Shown here in pieces: positions 11,564-19,252 of a DNA stretch of 64,000 nucleotides. Below the pieces are notes generated by a model. The model made no database searches. It was given only the letters and a program-made list of their open reading frames with translations, and had not been told where the DNA came from. Positions within the stretch are counted from its first letter, which is position 1. Each line of letters starts with the position of its first letter. Made by a program: the position numbers and the translations under genes. This stretch comes from Oceanicola granulosus HTCC2516 (lineage in GTDB: Bacteria > Pseudomonadota > Alphaproteobacteria > Rhodobacterales > Rhodobacteraceae): the NCBI RefSeq assembly GCF_000153305.1, contig NZ_CH724109.1, positions 79,037 through 143,036 on the forward strand. The letters are read 5' to 3'.

Positions 11564-12427
11564 TCAGCGAGCGCTGGCGGCCCAGTCCCAGTAGAGGTCG
11601 CGGGCGCGGCGGGTGACGGGGCCGACCTGGTAGCGGGTGTCGTCGAAGGCGGTGACGGGGGTGACCTTGGACATGTTGCCCGACAGGAAGATCTCGTCGG
11701 CCGCGCGGGCGTCGTCGAAGCCGAGGACGGTCTCGTGGACCGTCACGCCGTCGGCGCGCAGGTTGGAGATGTGGCGGGCGCGGGTGATGCCGGCGAGGAA
11801 GGTGCCGTTGGGGATCGGCGTGAAGACCTCGCCGTCCTTGACGAGGAAGACGTTGGCCGTGGCGCTCTCGGCGAGGTTGCCCATCGCGTCGGCGACGAGG
11901 GCGTTGCCGAAGCCGCGCGAGCGGGCCTCGGCGAGCATCCGGGCGTTGTTGGGGTAGAGGCAGGCGGCCTTGGCGTTGACCACGGCGTCCTCCATCACCG
12001 GGCGCCGGAAGCGGGTGGTGGTGACCTCGACGCTGAAGCCCTCGGGCGGCATCGGGATCTCCTCGAGGCAGACCGCGAAGCCGGGCTTGCCCTCGCCGGG
12101 CACGATCGCGGCCATGCCGCAATCGATCCCCCAGTACATCGGCCGGATGTAGACCGCCGCGTCGGGGCCGTAGTGGGTCAGGCCCTCGCGGACGATGGCG
12201 ACGATCTCCTCCGTGGTCATGTGGGGCTGGAGCATCAGCGCCTCGGCGGAGCGGTTGACCCGGGCGCAGTGCGGCTCGAGGTCGGGCACCAGCCCGCCGA
12301 CCGCGCGGGCGCCGTCGAACACGCCCGAGCCGAGCCAGGCGCCGTGGTCGGCGGCGCGGATCACCGCGACGTCGCCGTCGTGCCAGCGGCCCTCGTACCA
12401 TGTGCGGATGTTGGTTCCGGTCGCCAT
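11564..12427 (-). CDS. ilvE: Branched-chain amino acid aminotransferase (class IV PLP enzyme)
   Basis: The protein has 287 residues from ATG 12427, with GGGGGAG six bases upstream; ten further in-frame residues upstream are less likely. The fold-type IV features are a lysine in NAKAACLYPNN (about residue 153, the PLP Schiff base), an ESATANVFLVKDG glutamate block, and GTFLAGITRARH in place of the usual GITRD segment. The FDG-R motif (GVFDGARAV) binds the substrate carboxylate. It reversibly transaminates Leu, Ile and Val with 2-oxoglutarate. Class IV enzymes also include D-amino-acid transaminases and aminodeoxychorismate lyase, so substrate range is inferred. It converges on the VWA gene. 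Confidence 0.82.
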   Translation of the reverse strand: MATGTNIRTWYEGRWHDGDVAVIRAADHGAWLGSGVFDGARAVGGLVPDLEPHCARVNRSAEALMLQPHMTTEEIVAIVREGLTHYGPDAAVYIRPMYWGIDCGMAAIVPGEGKPGFAVCLEEIPMPPEGFSVEVTTTRFRRPVMEDAVVNAKAACLYPNNARMLAEARSRGFGNALVADAMGNLAESATANVFLVKDGEVFTPIPNGTFLAGITRARHISNLRADGVTVHETVLGFDDARAADEIFLSGNMSKVTPVTAFDDTRYQVGPVTRRARDLYWDWAASAR

Positions 12428-12511
12428 GCGCGCTCCCCCTCTGCCCGTGGCGCGCACGCTAGGCGAGGCGGCGGCGGAGGTCCAGCGAGGCGGCGTGGCG
12501 CTGCCGCCGGG

Positions 12512-12994
12512 TCAGGCTTCGGCGAGCAGGGCGTCGAGGTCGAGCCGGGCGTTGGTCATCGCCAGTGTGCCGTCGGGGGCGCGGGGCCACTCCGCCTCGG
12601 GGCGGTCGCGGTAGAGCTCGACGCCGTTGGCGTCGGGGTCGCGCAGGTAGACGGCCTCGCTCACGCCGTGGTCGGCCGCGCCGTCGAGCGGGATGCCGGC
12701 GGCGAGCACCTGCCGCAGGACCCGGGCGAGGGCGGGGCGGTCGGGGTAGAGGAAGGCGGTGTGGTAGAGGCCGGTATGGCCGGGCGGCGGCGGCGCGGCG
12801 CCGGCGCTCTCCCAGGTGTTGAGGCCGATATGGTGGTGGTATCCGCCGGCGGAGAGGAAAGCCGCCTGCGCGCCGTAGCGCTGCACCAGCTCGAAGCCGA
12901 GGACGCCGGAATAGAAGGCGATGGCGCGGTCGAGATCGGCGACCTTGAGATGGACGTGGCCGACGCGGGTCTCGGCGGGGGCGGTGAAGGTCAT
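12512..12994 (-). CDS. VOC family protein (catechol-2,3-dioxygenase-like / glyoxalase fold)
   Basis: The protein has about 160 residues from ATG 12994 (GGAG eight bases upstream; an in-frame ATG at 13021 is possible). There are two VOC beta-alpha-beta-beta-beta modules: the first opens with VGHVHLKVADLDRAIAFY, and the middle carries GGYHHHIGLNTWES, typical of CatE-type dioxygenase-like members. The C-terminal module ends with a glutamate in LRDPDANGVELY. His and Glu metal ligands are plausibly complete. The real substrate is unknown. It lies 84 bases upstream of ilvE on the same strand and may be cotranscribed with it. Confidence 0.85.
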   Translation of the reverse strand: MTFTAPAETRVGHVHLKVADLDRAIAFYSGVLGFELVQRYGAQAAFLSAGGYHHHIGLNTWESAGAAPPPPGHTGLYHTAFLYPDRPALARVLRQVLAAGIPLDGAADHGVSEAVYLRDPDANGVELYRDRPEAEWPRAPDGTLAMTNARLDLDALLAEA

Positions 12995-13095
12995 GGCGCG
13001 GCTCCGGTTGCTGCCCATCACCTAGGGCAGCTGCCATCCGGCGCGCAATTCGGCGCCAGCGGACCGCGGGGGTGCGCTGGCGCACGGGGGCGGCG

Positions 13096-14112
13096 TCAGC
13101 GCACGAGGCCGACGATCTCGTAGGTGCGCGCCAGCACCGGGTCGGCGATCTCGCGGGCGCGCTCGGCGCCGCGGGCGAGGATGCGGTCGATCTCGGCGGG
13201 GTCGTCCATCAGGCGCTTCATCTCGTCGGCGATCGGCGCGAGCTTGTCGACGGCGAGGTCGGCGAGGGCGGGCTTGAACTGGCCCCAGCCCGCGCCGGCG
13301 TGCTCGGCGAGCACCCGCTCGGCGGTGCTGTCGGACAGCGCGGCGTAGATCTCGACGAGGTTCTTCGCCTCGGGCCGGTCCTTCAGCTCGTCCGGCGTCT
13401 CCGGCAGCGGCGCGGGGTCGGTGCGGGCCTTCTTGAACTTCTTGGCGATCGTGTCGGCGTCGTCGGTCATGTTGATGCGCTCCATGTCGGACTCGCCCGA
13501 CTTGGACATCTTCTTGGTGCCGTCGCGCAGGTTCATGATCCGCATCGCCGGGCCCTCGATCACCGGCTCGGTGAGCGGGAAGAAGTCGACCTTGTAGTCG
13601 TGGTTGAACTTCGCGGCGATGTCGCGGGTCAGCTCAACGTGCTGCTTCTGATCCTCGCCCACGGGGACGTGGGTGGCGTGGTAGATCAGGATGTCGGCGG
13701 CCATCAGAGAAGGATACGCGTAGAGGCCGAGCGAGGCCTTCTCGGCGTTCTTGCCGGCCTTGTCCTTGAACTGGGTCATCCGGTTCATCCAGCCGATCCG
13801 GGCGACGCAGTTGAAGATCCAGGCGAGCTCGGCGTGGGCGGCGACCTGGCTCTGGTTGAAGAGGATCGAGCGCTCGGGGTCGATGCCCGAGGCCAGGTAG
13901 CCGGCGGCGACCTCGCGGGTCATGCCGGGCAGCTCGGCCGGGTCCTGCCAGACGGTGATGGCGTGCAGGTCGACGACGCAGAAGATGCTCTCGGTGCCCG
14001 CGTCCTGGGTCTGGACGAACCGCTTGATGGCGCCGAGGTAGTTGCCGAGGGTCAACCCGCCGGAGGGCTTGATGCCCGAAAAGACACGGGGCGCGAAGGT
14101 GGGCTCGGTCAT
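13096..14112 (-). CDS. trpS: Tryptophanyl-tRNA synthetase
   Basis: The protein has 338 residues, the normal length for bacterial TrpRS. It charges tRNA-Trp using ATP. Class I signatures are present: [12 protein letters not shown] (HIGH-equivalent TLGN, residues 21-24) and KKMSKS (KMSKS at 200-204), with VGEDQKQH in the active-site region and [10 protein letters not shown] before it. It is divergent from the rhomboid-like gene, with the two starts about 70 bases apart. Confidence 0.98.
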
Positions 14113-14184
14113 GACACGTCCGGGGCTGGTTTTCGGGGACGGCCTCGCTTACCCATGCCCGTCAACAGCGTCAAGGAGACCGCC

Positions 14185-14862
14185 TTGCAGCAGGAGACCC
14201 CGCTCAACCCGATCCCGCCCGTCGTGCTGCTCGCGGTGCTCGCGATGATCGCCGTGGAGGTGGTGCTCGGGCTGGCGGCCCAGGGCATCGTCGGGGGGCA
14301 GCAGGGGATCGGATGGCGCATCCGGGCGTGGGAGGATTACGCCTTCGCGCCGCGGGTCGTCGAGCTGGTGGCCGAGCGCGGCGTGTGGTCGGCCGACCTG
14401 CTGGCGCGGTTCGTGACCTACCCGTTCGTCCACGCCTCCGTCACCCACGCCGCCTTCGCGGTGGTCATCACGCTGGCGATGGGCAAGTTCGCGGGCGAGG
14501 TGCTGACGGGCTTCGCGCTGGGCGCGCTGATGCTGGCCTGCACGGTGCTGTCGGCGCTCTTCTACGGTCTGGTCGTGTCGGACAACGTGCCGCTGTTCGG
14601 AGCCTACCCGCTCGCCTACGGGCTGATCGGGGCCTACACCTACATCCTCTGGCTCCACCTCGGGCGACGCGGCGAGCGGCAGATCGCGGCGTTCCGGCTG
14701 ATCGGCTTCCTGTTCGTGCTGCAGATCGTCTACGCGATGCTGTTCGGCTCCAACCCGCAATGGATCGCCGAGCTCGCCGGGTTCGTGATCGGCTTCGCGC
14801 TGACGCCGCTGCTGGTACCCGGCGGCTGGACGGCGCTGCTGATGAAGCTGCGCACCCGCTAG
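14185..14862 (+). CDS. Rhomboid-like membrane protein lacking catalytic residues
   Basis: The protein has 225 residues from TTG 14185, which has AAGGAG six bases upstream; an in-frame ATG at 14155 has no ribosome-binding site and is the alternative. About six membrane helices are visible and the arrangement matches rhomboid proteases. However, the serine motif GxSG is replaced by GAYPLAYGLIGAY, and the catalytic histidine position in the last helix (usually AHLxGF) reads WIAELAGF. Both catalytic residues are therefore absent, and I call it a pseudo-rhomboid. Similar inactive members occur beside trpS/murJ in Rhodobacterales. Its stop overlaps that of murJ in CTAG. A non-proteolytic membrane-protein quality role is only a guess. 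Confidence 0.82.
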   Translation: MQQETPLNPIPPVVLLAVLAMIAVEVVLGLAAQGIVGGQQGIGWRIRAWEDYAFAPRVVELVAERGVWSADLLARFVTYPFVHASVTHAAFAVVITLAMGKFAGEVLTGFALGALMLACTVLSALFYGLVVSDNVPLFGAYPLAYGLIGAYTYILWLHLGRRGERQIAAFRLIGFLFVLQIVYAMLFGSNPQWIAELAGFVIGFALTPLLVPGGWTALLMKLRTR

Positions 14863-16409
14863 GTGGCGCTGCGCCGGCGCATGGCGCGGGTGAACTCGCT
14901 GAGGCGGAACGCGCCGAACAGGCTGCCGACGGCGAAGTAGACGGCGATGCCGAGCGCCACCAGGCCGGCGAGCGCGAGGTAGCGGATCAGCGTCATGTCG
15001 AAGACCGGGGCGGTGAGGCGGAACGCCACCATCAGCGTCAGCCCCATCACCAGCGCGGCGGCGACGGTGCGCCAGATGCGGCGGCGGAAGCGGTCGTCGA
15101 AGGCGGCGGCGGGGCCCATGCGGCGGCTCTTCCACCACAGCAGCGCCACCATCGACCAGGCCGCCAGCGTCGTGCCCATCGCGGCGGCGGCGTAGCCGAC
15201 CAGCGGCGCGAGGCCGATGGCGACGGCGGCGTTGACCAGCATCGACACGACGGCGAAGCGGAACGGGCTCTTCGTGTCCTCGCGGGCGAAGTAGAGCGGC
15301 TGCAGCGTCTTCTGGAGCACGAAGGCGGGCAGGCCGGCGCCGTAGATCGCGACGGCGAGGGCGGTGGCGTAGGTGTCGTCACTGTCGAACGCGCCGCGCT
15401 CGAAGAGCACCGAGACCAGCGGCACCGGGATCGCCATGAGCGCGACGGCGGCGGGCACGGTCATCGCCAGCGAGAACTCGCAGGCGCGGTTGAAGCTCTC
15501 GCGCCCGCCCTGCTCGTCGCCCGCCGCGAGGCGGCGCGACAGTTCCGGCAGCAGCACCACGCCCACGGCGATGCCGACGACGCCGAGGGGCAGCTGGTAG
15601 AGCCGGTCGGCGTAGTTGAGCCACGCGATGGCGCCGTCGAAGAAGCTCGCCACCTGCCGTCCGACGAGCAGGTTCACCTGCACCACGCCCCCCGCCAGCA
15701 TCGCCGGGCCGGCGATGATCGCGAGCCGCCTCAGGTCGGGTGTCAGGCGCGGGCGGCGGAAGGTGAGGCGGAAGCCGGCGCGGCTCGCGGCGATCCAGAC
15801 CAGCGCGAGCTGTGCGAGGCCGGCGAGCGGCACGGTCCAGATCAGCGTGTCGCCGACGGGCCAGCCCAGCGACTCGCCGAGGAACAGCGCCGAGATGAAC
15901 ATCACATTGAGCAGAACCGGCGCGGCGGCGGCGGCGACGAAGCGGCCGGTGGAGTTGAGCACCCCCGACAGCAGCGCCGCGAGCGAGATGAACAGGATGT
16001 AGGGGAAGGCGATGCGCCCGTAGATCACCGTCAGCGGGTAGCGCTCGTCGCCGAGGAAGCCCGACGCCATCGCCAGCACCAGCCACGGCATCGCCGCCAC
16101 GGCGATTACCGTGAATACCACCAGCACCGTCGCGAGTCCGGTGAAGGCATCGCGGGCGAACTCGCGCGCCTCGTCGGGCTCTTCGAGCTTCTTGGAGAAC
16201 AGCGGCACGAAGGCCATGTTGAACGCGCCCTCGGCGAAGAAGCGGCGGAACATGTTGGGCAGCGAGAAGGCGATCAGGAACGCCTCGGCCACCGGCCCGG
16301 CGCCGAGGCTCGCGGCGATCAGGATGTCGCGCACGAAGCCGAGCACGCGGCTCAGGAGGGTCCAGACGCCGACGGTTAGAAAGCCGGCGATCAGCTTGAT
16401 CGGTTGCAC
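14859..16409 (-). CDS. murJ: Lipid II flippase MurJ
   Basis: The protein has 516 residues, a polytopic member of the MOP superfamily with about 14 helices. It translocates lipid II across the inner membrane during peptidoglycan synthesis. Family hallmarks are the N-terminal TLLSRVLGFVRDILIA with AEAFLIAFSLPNMFRRFFAEGAF, and the interior LNYADRLYQLPLGVVGIA with LPELSRR. It lies 17 bases downstream of glnD on the same strand, a classical alphaproteobacterial pairing, and its last bases overlap the convergent rhomboid-like gene by four. Confidence 0.98.
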   Translation of the reverse strand: MQPIKLIAGFLTVGVWTLLSRVLGFVRDILIAASLGAGPVAEAFLIAFSLPNMFRRFFAEGAFNMAFVPLFSKKLEEPDEAREFARDAFTGLATVLVVFTVIAVAAMPWLVLAMASGFLGDERYPLTVIYGRIAFPYILFISLAALLSGVLNSTGRFVAAAAAPVLLNVMFISALFLGESLGWPVGDTLIWTVPLAGLAQLALVWIAASRAGFRLTFRRPRLTPDLRRLAIIAGPAMLAGGVVQVNLLVGRQVASFFDGAIAWLNYADRLYQLPLGVVGIAVGVVLLPELSRRLAAGDEQGGRESFNRACEFSLAMTVPAAVALMAIPVPLVSVLFERGAFDSDDTYATALAVAIYGAGLPAFVLQKTLQPLYFAREDTKSPFRFAVVSMLVNAAVAIGLAPLVGYAAAAMGTTLAAWSMVALLWWKSRRMGPAAAFDDRFRRRIWRTVAAALVMGLTLMVAFRLTAPVFDMTLIRYLALAGLVALGIAVYFAVGSLFGAFRLSEFTRAMRRRSAT

Positions 16410-16426: not shown

Positions 16427-19252
16427 TCAGGGCCGGGCCCGCTGCGCGCCCTGCCGTATCGCGTCGCGCAGCTTCGCCTCAAGGGCCCGGCGCCGGCTTT
16501 CGGAGCGGAATTTCAGGCCGAACATGTCCTTGACGTAGAAGGTATCGACGACCTGCTCGCCATAGGTCGCGATGACGGCGGAGGCAATGTAGACGTTGGC
16601 CGCCGCGAGGGTGCGGGTGAGATCGTAGAGCAGGCCCGGGCGGTCGCGGGTGTCGACCTCGATGATGGTGTAGATCTCGGAGCCGTCGTTGTCGAAGGTG
16701 ATCGACGTCGGCACCTTGAAGGCGGCCTCGCGCTTCTTGAGCTTGTCGCGGTCGCGGAACGCCTCCTTGGCGACGACCTCGCCCTTCAGCGTCTTGCCGA
16801 TCATGTCGCGCAGCCTCGGCAGCCGGTCGGTCTCGTAGGGGTGGCCGTCCTGGTCCTGCACCCAGAAGGCGGCGCAGGCGTAGCCGTCCTTGCTGGTGAA
16901 GGTGCGGGCGTCCTTGATGTTGGCCTGCACCAGCGCCAGCGCGCCGCACATCCGGCTGAAGATGCCGGGGTGGTCCTCCATCACGATGCAGACCCGCGTT
17001 GCGTCGCGGTCCTCGTCGGGGGTGATCTCGAAGCGGACCTCGTCGTGGCCAATGCCGCCGCGCAGCAGGCGGGCGAAGTCGACATGGGCGGTGACGTGCA
17101 GGCCCTGCCAGTAGGGCGGGTAGTGGCGCGTGGTCTCGATGCGCAGGTCGCGCTCGTTCCAGTCGGCCAGCGCCTCGCGCAGGTTCTTGCGCGCCTGCAC
17201 CCCGCGCTCCTCGCGGTTCAGCGCCTCGAGCCCGTCCTCGAGCCCGCGCCGGGTCTGGCGGTAGAGCGCGCGCAGCAGCGAGGCCTTCCAGTTGTTCCAC
17301 ACGTTCGGCCCGACGCCGCGGATGTCGCAGACGGTGAGCACGCAGAGCAGGTCGAGCCGCTCGCGGGTCTTCACCGCCTTGGCGAAGTCGCGCACCGTGG
17401 CCGGGTCGGCGATGTCGCGCTTCTGGGCCATGTCCGACATCAGCAAATGGTAGCGGACCAGCCACTCGACCGTCTCGGCCTCCTTCTTCTTCAGCCCGAA
17501 GCGCGGCGCGATGGCCCGTGCCAGCCGCGCGCCGACGATGGAGTGATCCTCCTCGCGCCCCTTGCCGATGTCGTGCAGCAGCAGCGCCAGGTAGAGCACC
17601 TTGCGGTTGACGCCCTCCTTGAGGATCGAGCTCGCGATCGGCAGCTCCTCGGTCAGCTCGCCCCGCTCGATCTGGGCGAGCGTGGAGATGCACTGGATGG
17701 TGTGCTCGTCGACCGTGTAGCTGTGGTACATGTTGAACTGCATCAGCGCGACGATCGGCTCGAACTGGGGCAGGTAGGCGGAGAGCACGCCGAGCTCGTT
17801 CATCCGCCGCAGCGCCCGCTCGGGGTTGGCGTGCTTGAGCAGCGTGTCGAAGAAGATCTTCGCCGCCACGGGGGAGTGGCGCACCTCGTCGTCGATCTGG
17901 TGCAGGTTGGCGGCGATCAGGCGCATCGCGTCGGGGTGCAGCAGGTTGCCAGTGCGCACCGATTCCTCGAAGATCCGCAGCATGTTGAACTTGTCGGAAA
18001 GAAACGCCGCCTCGTCGCCGACGGTCAGGCGGTTCTGCTTGATCTTGTAGGGCGGCCGGGCCCGGCGGCGGCGCGACAACAGCCGGGTCAGCATCGGCTC
18101 GGACTTGGTGTGGCTGGCCTCGAGCGCGGTGAGGAAGATGCGCGTCAGCTCGCCCACCCGCGTCGCCTCGCGGAAGTAGCGCTGCATGAACCACTCGACC
18201 CCGCGCCGGCCGCCGCGGTCGCGGTAGCTCATCCGCGCGGCGACCTCGACCTGCATGTCGAAGGTGAGCTGGTCCATCGCGCGCCCGGCGATCAGGTGCA
18301 GGTGCAGCCGCACCGCCCACAGGAAATCCTCGGCCTTCATGAAGGTGGCGTATTCGTCGCGGGTGAACAGGCCGAGATCGACCAGCTCGCCGGCGTCGCG
18401 GACGCCGTAGATGTACTTGCCGATCCAGTAGAGCGACTGCAGGTCGCGCAGCCCGCCCTTGCCCTCCTTCACGTTGGGCTCGACCATGTAGCGCTGGCCG
18501 CCCTGCTTCTTGTGCCGATCCGCCCGTTCGCCGAGCTTGGCCTCGATGAAGTCCGAGGCGGTGTGGTGGAACAGGTCGTTCCACAGCCGCCGGCCGAGCT
18601 CTTCGCCGAGCGGCTTGTCGCCCGCGAGGTGGCGGTACTCGACGAGCGAGGTGCGGATAGTGAAATCCTGCTTCGCGAGGCGGATGCAGTCCTTCACGGT
18701 GCGGCTCGCGTGGCCGACCTTCAGCTTCAGGTCCCACAGCACGTAGAGCATCGACTCGATGACGCTCTCGGCCCAGGGGGTCATCTTCCAGGGCGTCAGG
18801 AACAGCAGGTCGACGTCGGAGTAGGCCGCCATCTCGCCGCGCCCGTAGCCGCCGACGGCGATCAGCGAGAGCCGCTCGCCGCTGGTCGGGTTGGGCAGCG
18901 GGTGCATGTGCCTGCGGACCATCTCGAACGTCGCGAGGACGAGCTGGTCGGTGAGCCAGGCGTAGGCGCGCTTGGTCTTGCGCGACTCAAAGGGCGCGGC
19001 CGCGAAGGCGTCCGCGATCGCCGCCATGCCCGTGAGGCGCGCCTCGTTGAGCAGGGCGATGATCTTCGGCCGCGCCGCGCGTACGTCTCCGGTCTCGGCG
19101 ATGAGCGCGTCGATGCGCGCCTCGATCGCCGGGCCGTCGAAGATCCGCTCCGCCGGCAGGATCAGCGCGTCGGGGAGCGGAGTCTTGACGTCCTCGCCGG
19201 GGCTCGAGGCCTCAGAGGCCTGCAGCGGCGAAGCTGGTCGGGGCTGGATCAA
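16427..19252 (-). CDS. glnD: Bifunctional PII uridylyltransferase / uridylyl-removing enzyme
   Basis: The protein has 941 residues. It senses glutamine and uridylylates or deuridylylates PII proteins, controlling nitrogen assimilation. Order of domains: nucleotidyltransferase (GGYGRGEMAAYSDVDLLFL, about 130-150), helical region with YMVEPNVKEGKGGLRD, HD hydrolase (LLLHDIGKGREEDHS, about 560), and two C-terminal ACT domains (VCIVMEDHPGIFSRM and IIEVDTRDRPGLLYDL). The ATG at 19252 lies inside the 3' end of the preceding lipoprotein gene (41-base overlap), and no better in-frame start exists before the family-conserved region. It is followed by murJ. Confidence 0.98.
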   Translation of the reverse strand: MIQPRPASPLQASEASSPGEDVKTPLPDALILPAERIFDGPAIEARIDALIAETGDVRAARPKIIALLNEARLTGMAAIADAFAAAPFESRKTKRAYAWLTDQLVLATFEMVRRHMHPLPNPTSGERLSLIAVGGYGRGEMAAYSDVDLLFLTPWKMTPWAESVIESMLYVLWDLKLKVGHASRTVKDCIRLAKQDFTIRTSLVEYRHLAGDKPLGEELGRRLWNDLFHHTASDFIEAKLGERADRHKKQGGQRYMVEPNVKEGKGGLRDLQSLYWIGKYIYGVRDAGELVDLGLFTRDEYATFMKAEDFLWAVRLHLHLIAGRAMDQLTFDMQVEVAARMSYRDRGGRRGVEWFMQRYFREATRVGELTRIFLTALEASHTKSEPMLTRLLSRRRRARPPYKIKQNRLTVGDEAAFLSDKFNMLRIFEESVRTGNLLHPDAMRLIAANLHQIDDEVRHSPVAAKIFFDTLLKHANPERALRRMNELGVLSAYLPQFEPIVALMQFNMYHSYTVDEHTIQCISTLAQIERGELTEELPIASSILKEGVNRKVLYLALLLHDIGKGREEDHSIVGARLARAIAPRFGLKKKEAETVEWLVRYHLLMSDMAQKRDIADPATVRDFAKAVKTRERLDLLCVLTVCDIRGVGPNVWNNWKASLLRALYRQTRRGLEDGLEALNREERGVQARKNLREALADWNERDLRIETTRHYPPYWQGLHVTAHVDFARLLRGGIGHDEVRFEITPDEDRDATRVCIVMEDHPGIFSRMCGALALVQANIKDARTFTSKDGYACAAFWVQDQDGHPYETDRLPRLRDMIGKTLKGEVVAKEAFRDRDKLKKREAAFKVPTSITFDNDGSEIYTIIEVDTRDRPGLLYDLTRTLAAANVYIASAVIATYGEQVVDTFYVKDMFGLKFRSESRRRALEAKLRDAIRQGAQRARP

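Follow-up and report, generated by a model that had tools for sequence, protein, structure and literature searches.

Rhomboid pseudoproteases in the literature that we found are eukaryotic (iRhoms and Derlins) and the bacterial case, YqgP, is a catalytically active protease that plays an additional role, as far as the accessible parts of these sources go. Both iRhoms and Derlins do work related to client handling (PMC12615303 and PMC3149277, in excerpt). According to the available portion of PMC7231995, the dead YqgP variant S288A still hands its client MgtE to FtsH, and this adaptor role requires an unobstructed active site. When a Pro was put beside the Ser position of active rhomboids, including AarA, activity was abolished or strongly reduced (PMC3149277, accessible part). 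Surveys of Streptomyces and mycobacterial rhomboids, in the sections available to us, describe the catalytic residues as present. Our literature search, which covered few subscription journals, returned neither a report of a conserved non-catalytic rhomboid in the Rhodobacterales nor a bacterial subfamily of single origin with a GxYP/ADxxGF motif. The kind of protein presented here, a rhomboid pseudoprotease, is already known; what appears to be new, judging from sequence, is a bacterial, lineage-wide and single-origin subfamily with this motif.

A rhomboid gene between trpS and murJ

The window, i.e., the whole stretch of 64,000 nucleotides of Oceanicola granulosus DNA that was analysed, carries at 14185-14862 (+) a gene that we assign to the non-catalytic rhomboids (rhomboid pseudoproteases) on the basis of Pfam PF01694, the GlpG fold and its orthologues. 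The reading frame covers 14185-14859, with the stop codon running to 14862, and encodes a polytopic product of 225 residues. Its TTG start is consistent with where the orthologues align and, by direct reading, is preceded at a distance of 6 bases by AAGGAG, a likely ribosome-binding site (14173-14178 (+)). The sequence-only reading had placed the gene beside trpS, murJ and glnD. The divergent trpS (13096-14112 (-)) and the convergent murJ (14859-16409 (-)), whose end overlaps that of the rhomboid gene by 4 bases, are its direct neighbours, whereas glnD (16427-19252 (-)) comes next after murJ in the gene order of the window and hence lies one gene further. Beyond trpS, branched-chain aminotransferase-like and glyoxalase-like genes, named by eye, were seen at 11564-13021 (-), an order beside trpS that also occurs in several relatives.

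PF01694 (Rhomboid) matched the window protein with 53.5 bits against a cut-off of 22.6 and was the sole Pfam family above its cut-off; in alignment A2, all 40 members matched it at E 0.001. At E-values of 1 or below, Pfam listed Rhomboid and a sub-threshold YibE_F; the Derlin family (which we take to be the one named DER1) was absent from this list, which passes through a filter that can drop weak matches. The equivalogs TIGR04239 (GlpG) and TIGR03902 (rhombosortase) scored below their cut-offs (19.4 versus 250 and 17.4 versus 84, respectively).

A search of viral contigs for extra sequences for folding found none, and the AlphaFold2 model was built on a 6-sequence alignment, the best model reaching a pLDDT of 74 (44-59 for the other four) and a pTM of 0.73. 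Its best match was the six-helix rhomboid fold of GlpG (Z 18.3, 175 residues, 2.8 Å), followed after the GlpG entries by iRhom1 (Z 16.3), iRhom2 (14.7) and a designed rhomboid-like fold (13.1). Lower matches to a human ERAD complex chain (7y4w, Z 10.5) and Derlin-1 (7czb, Z 9.9) fall in a range that is uninformative for helical bundles, and Foldseek TM-scores were moderate, about 0.5. A PDB search with the single sequence gave five weak matches, with no rhomboid relative among them, and the profile search recovered GlpG and the iRhoms. The Pfam score and the GlpG match, the latter on a model of pLDDT 74, bear out the earlier statement that the rhomboid fold is retained.

Replacement of the active site

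The profile of 40 orthologues, once aligned to GlpG, placed Y141 on S201, Y145 on Y205, E196 on H254 and R75 on R137, in what we take to be the GlpG residue numbers. TM4 of the window protein reads G139-A-Y141-P142-L-A-Y145-G, with Gly-Ala-Tyr141-Pro142 (14599-14610 (+)) in place of GxSG, and TM6 reads W193-I-A-E196-L-A-G-F, with Glu196 (14770-14772 (+)) at the position of the catalytic His. Both the missing GxSG and the missing TM6 His had been noticed by the sequence-only reading, and the alignment agrees with it on each.

These replacements were found throughout the 176 orthologues that we collected, none of which has a Ser+His pair. Specifically, the Ser position holds Tyr or Phe in 164, Ser in 1 and another residue in 11; the residue that follows it is Pro in 168, and the His position is Asp or Glu in 172 and His in none. 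The position of GlpG Asn154 in the oxyanion site, occupied by Ala92 in the window protein (14458-14460 (+)), is Asn in 14/14 Ser-His relatives of the family and in 25/25 from other families (39/39 altogether) and in 0/176 orthologues, which lost it without a fixed replacement. The dead clade thus defined carries a conserved non-catalytic motif, G-[AG]-[YF]-P-x-x-Y-G-L-I-G and W-[VI]-A-[DE]-x-x-G-F, of the kind that the sequence-only reading had asked for as support, and the replacement residues at the old active-site positions are 93-98% conserved.

For the column comparison, the Ser-His set comprised 14 rhomboids from within the family and 25 from other families; since the family rows were picked for Ser and His, their 100% values there arise by construction. 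L030, which has an internal TGA and a gap in the His column, was counted among the 176 and omitted from this comparison, as was L148, which has Asn for Ser and was labelled active in the tree. L010 and L002 were dropped as duplicates of L004 and L009, respectively, and L137 and L141 as fragments. The columns that are conserved and yet differ from the Ser-His relatives are 141, 142, 180 (Gln for Asn) and 196, together with an inserted Gly38. Glu25 in TM1 (14257-14259 (+)) and Arg45 are invariant in the dead clade (Glu25 in 176/176) and, being common to the Ser-His relatives of the family (13/14 and 12/14, respectively), are inherited rather than new. Arg75 (14407-14409 (+)) is kept in 98% of the dead clade, with Met, Ser or Thr in the Ser-His family relatives, and Tyr145 (14617-14619 (+)) in 95%. 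A C-terminal tail specific to the dead clade, Pro-Gly-Gly followed by basic residues (14818-14859 (+)), is also conserved (P212 94%, G213 97-98%, R223 93%), and its P212 and G213 show no conservation in the Ser-His relatives.

A Ser and a His might have formed a dyad at shifted positions, a check that the earlier reading had proposed. Among the 176 orthologues, the only Ser/Thr columns above 55% were T152 (89%), S207 (73%), T87 (68%), S119 (62%) and T78 (56%), the window protein having Cys at 119 and Thr at 207. The only His columns were H83 (87%) and H88 (62%), equivalent to GlpG His145 and His150 (14431-14448 (+); kept in 153 and 110 of the 176, respectively), and no Cys column was conserved. 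T78 and T87 lie near these TM2 histidines, so that a Thr-His pair would be conceivable there, although not one general across the orthologues. An alternative shifted dyad was rejected, as no pair was generally conserved. From these residues we infer that the window rhomboid has no protease activity.

Distribution, selection and origin of the dead clade

We surveyed 198 genomes of the family of the window (Rhodobacteraceae), reading every match. The window protein had a match in 187 of them and a non-catalytic orthologue in 176, so the gene has not been lost from most relatives, a loss that the earlier reading had named as evidence against it. The other 22 genomes comprised 10 with only Ser-His rhomboids among their matches, one with a broken copy (G157) and 11 without a match at E 0.001, among which G167 holds a rhomboid fragment beside trpS. 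G172, one of the ten Ser-His-only genomes, has a second, decaying rhomboid copy. This copy, L148 (G172:C19:9429-9971), reads GANC, with Asn for Ser, keeps the His and contains one in-frame TGA, and it appears to be a separate gene in decay. By this survey, the predicted pseudoprotease is a gene of most of the family and not one decayed copy. All 121 genomes of an order-level sample belonged to the same family; 120 of them scored at least 201 bits and, apart from sequences read in the other surveys, were classed on this score alone, and the remaining one (G666, 115.7 bits) has the live version. In a class-level sample of 385 genomes, 75 matched profile A2 at an E-value of 1e-10 or below, 5 from the family of the window (293-329 bits) and 70 from other families (up to 77.9 bits). 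Each of these 70 carried GxS[GA] and the His motif, the last 45 being read by pattern. Paracoccus denitrificans has GGYP and WIAEIAGF, which makes a species used in the laboratory available for experiments. The Paracoccus ferrooxidans member, located between trpS and murJ, bears the annotation rhomboid serine protease. This poses a naming problem, as at least one dead rhomboid is publicly called a serine protease. Separately, an intact Ser-His rhomboid (L326) was seen on Haematobacter massiliensis plasmid pOT1-6 (2085-3600), preceded directly by a gene annotated as encoding a VPLPA-CTERM sorting domain protein and followed by galE and genes for polysaccharide export. A Tn3 transposase lies nearby, and the arrangement is a possible mobile rhomboid/sorting-signal pair.

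Selection was estimated by NG86, a rough measure on GC-rich genes, in 20 non-overlapping pairs with a rhomboid identity of 0.60 or more. The two sequences of one pair did not differ and were uninformative, and dN/dS was below 1 in all of the other 19 pairs. The rhomboid median was 0.251 (0.097-0.453), near that of murJ (0.239), with trpS at 0.173, and the dN/dS check that the earlier reading had proposed thus returned purifying selection. These values support that the dead rhomboid is kept for something besides proteolysis. That the gene is maintained without protease chemistry, as first suggested, accords with the 0/176 count and the dN/dS values, insofar as inactivity can be read from residues. 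One dead orthologue, L030 (G032:C51:40599-41282), has an in-frame TGA that is either a sequencing error or the mark of a fresh pseudogene.

The maximum-likelihood tree was built from 44 dead-form rhomboids and 40 others, 84 in total. All 44 dead forms fell on one side of a branch supported at 100/99 and recovered in 100% of 200 bootstrap trees, and with the motif columns removed this branch still had an SH-aLRT of 99. By this phylogeny, the dead clade is of single origin; its grouping with the Ser-His clade of the family received a support of only 85/82. The deepest dead members, L127 and L128, read GATP and GSSP in TM4 and already have Asp for His. These two sequences suggest that the His change and the Gly-to-Pro change came before the aromatic residue, and they may be intermediates in the loss of catalysis.

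The locus itself is well conserved: trpS lies upstream on the opposite strand in 172/176 orthologous loci, and murJ follows, also on the opposite strand, in 143/176 (among the other loci, murJ had no match in 30 with 450 or more bases downstream, and 3 offered a shorter stretch). A GASG/AHLGG rhomboid sits beside trpS in five genomes that lack the dead form, namely G162, G122, G101 and G083 from the set of 198 and G666 from the order-level sample; murJ is on the other side in four of these. Because this live rhomboid occupies the same slot, the dead form probably arose there, between trpS and murJ, from an active protease. In a trpS tree, these five genomes were placed outside a 39-genome group (99/95) to which 32 of the 34 dead-form genomes in the tree belong, a placement that rests partly on weak forks and in which one of the five, L292, has only 38% of columns. 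The two dead-form genomes outside the group were G059 and G074, and the latter pairs with the live-slot G162 at 100/98 while its rhomboid is nested in the dead clade. The G162/G074 pairing may therefore reflect transfer, replacement, or paralogy followed by differential loss, which may complicate a single conversion. Ser-His copies also lie at other places in the dead-form genomes G120, G179 and G037. The family genome G172 fell with the outgroup. Finally, in 8 genomes the gap between trpS and murJ is 74-388 bases and holds no rhomboid, indicating that the gene is dispensable in some lineages. Broken dead-rhomboid remnants were also seen beside trpS (L296, G157:C31:3187-3804; L295, G167:C23, locus 2740-2943), and these are recent losses caught in progress.

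Possible functions and relation to known rhomboids

We infer, with a probability of about one half, that the protein is a rhomboid pseudoprotease that binds membrane proteins as clients and does not cleave them. The dyad of an active rhomboid located between trpS and murJ would have been lost once, in an ancestor of most of the family, with Ser giving way to Tyr/Phe, the next Gly to Pro and the His to Asp/Glu, the oxyanion Asn being lost and the six-helix fold and framework residues retained. The transmembrane segments of clients would then be bound via the rhomboid gate and held, folded or escorted, and clients might be delivered to FtsH or another processive protease, as with dead YqgP and the Derlins in ERAD. 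The conserved basic C-terminal tail could have a docking role. Against a handling like that of YqgP, the aromatic residue and the Pro likely fill the old active site, and the dead rhomboid has no extra soluble domain of the kind used by YqgP and iRhoms. The fuller proposal, that a stand-alone bacterial pseudoprotease was converted in place across the lineage into a dedicated client adaptor, a counterpart of Derlins and iRhoms reached independently, is tentative and falls a little short of even odds.

The preserved fold and framework residues would also suit a Dfm1-like membrane-shaping or lipid role without specific clients, in which local bilayer thinning aids insertion, extraction or lipid movement; Derlins are credited with membrane thinning and chaperone functions in a review (PMC12615303, accessible part). 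A bulk lipid role, however, needs no specific conservation of the former active-site positions, which reaches 93-98%, and we consider it unlikely. Slightly less probable still is that the protein acts on an active rhomboid paralogue as a decoy or regulator, by substrate competition or in mixed oligomers. At least two PF01694 matches were present in 171/198 family genomes; the source genome itself holds L001, a rhomboid with GASG and AHAGG. A sole role as paralogue regulator is nevertheless disfavoured by eight genomes, 98-100% complete, in which the dead gene is the only rhomboid above the Pfam cut-off (G030, G042, G045, G074, G093, G117, G150 and G169; the G030 assembly has about 340 contigs, where a rhomboid gene could have been missed).

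A partnership with MurJ or the cell-envelope machinery, which we hold to be just as doubtful as the decoy, would account for the old trpS-rhomboid-murJ order, given the convergent murJ in 143/176 dead-form and 4/5 live-slot loci. In addition, the S. aureus YqgP homologue ActH is reportedly needed to activate the amidase LytH (PMC7231995, available portion). The rhomboid strand, however, is opposite to those of murJ and trpS, so that it is not co-transcribed with them; the same order also occurs with the live version, and murJ still lies beside trpS in the 8 loci without a rhomboid. A cryptic enzyme with other chemistry, based on an acidic pair of E25 (TM1) and D/E196 (TM6), on a TM2 Thr-His pair or on Thr152, could draw on the conservation of these residues (E25 176/176, D/E196 172/176, T152 89%, H83 87%). 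It is improbable, as E25 is equally conserved in Ser-His relatives (13/14), Asp and Glu interchange at 196, and the old site is filled by Tyr/Phe (164/176) and Pro (168/176). A decaying pseudogene without function, to which the in-frame TGA of the G032 copy, the broken G157 copy and the G167 fragment might point, is ruled out at the level of the family by the fixed new motif and by dN/dS below 1 in 19/19 pairs, and has a negligible chance of being correct.

Since most members of this large and tractable family carry a dead rhomboid and some have a live version at the same locus, the question of why dead rhomboids persist becomes testable by live/dead swaps at one locus. Compared with known systems, the dead clade shares with the GlpG-type proteases (PF01694) the six-helix fold, the Arg137, Tyr205, Gly199 and TM6 glycine positions and, for the most part, the TM2 histidines, whereas the Ser201, Gly202, His254 and Asn154 positions are all replaced. 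The Ser-His rhomboids of the live slot (G162, G666, G122, G101 and G083) have the same locus, orientation and Glu25; in contrast, they carry their own GASG, AHLGG and Asn and have no conserved PGG tail. The iRhoms (RHBDF1/2) similarly lack the dyad, have a Pro adjoining the Ser position and resemble the model in fold. Their Pro, however, comes before the Ser position (GPx) and that of the dead clade after it (GAYP), and the 225-residue window protein has neither the long cytosolic N-terminus nor the iRhom homology domain (PMC3149277, accessible part). Derlins and Dfm1 are likewise short pseudorhomboids, with the uninformative Z-scores given above for 7czb and 7y4w, but Derlins are eukaryotic proteins of the ER, and no Derlin family was among the Pfam matches listed for the window protein. 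The function proposed here would resemble that of B. subtilis YqgP, a bacterial rhomboid with non-proteolytic client presentation (PMC7231995, available portion), although YqgP itself is proteolytically active and carries a soluble N-terminal domain.
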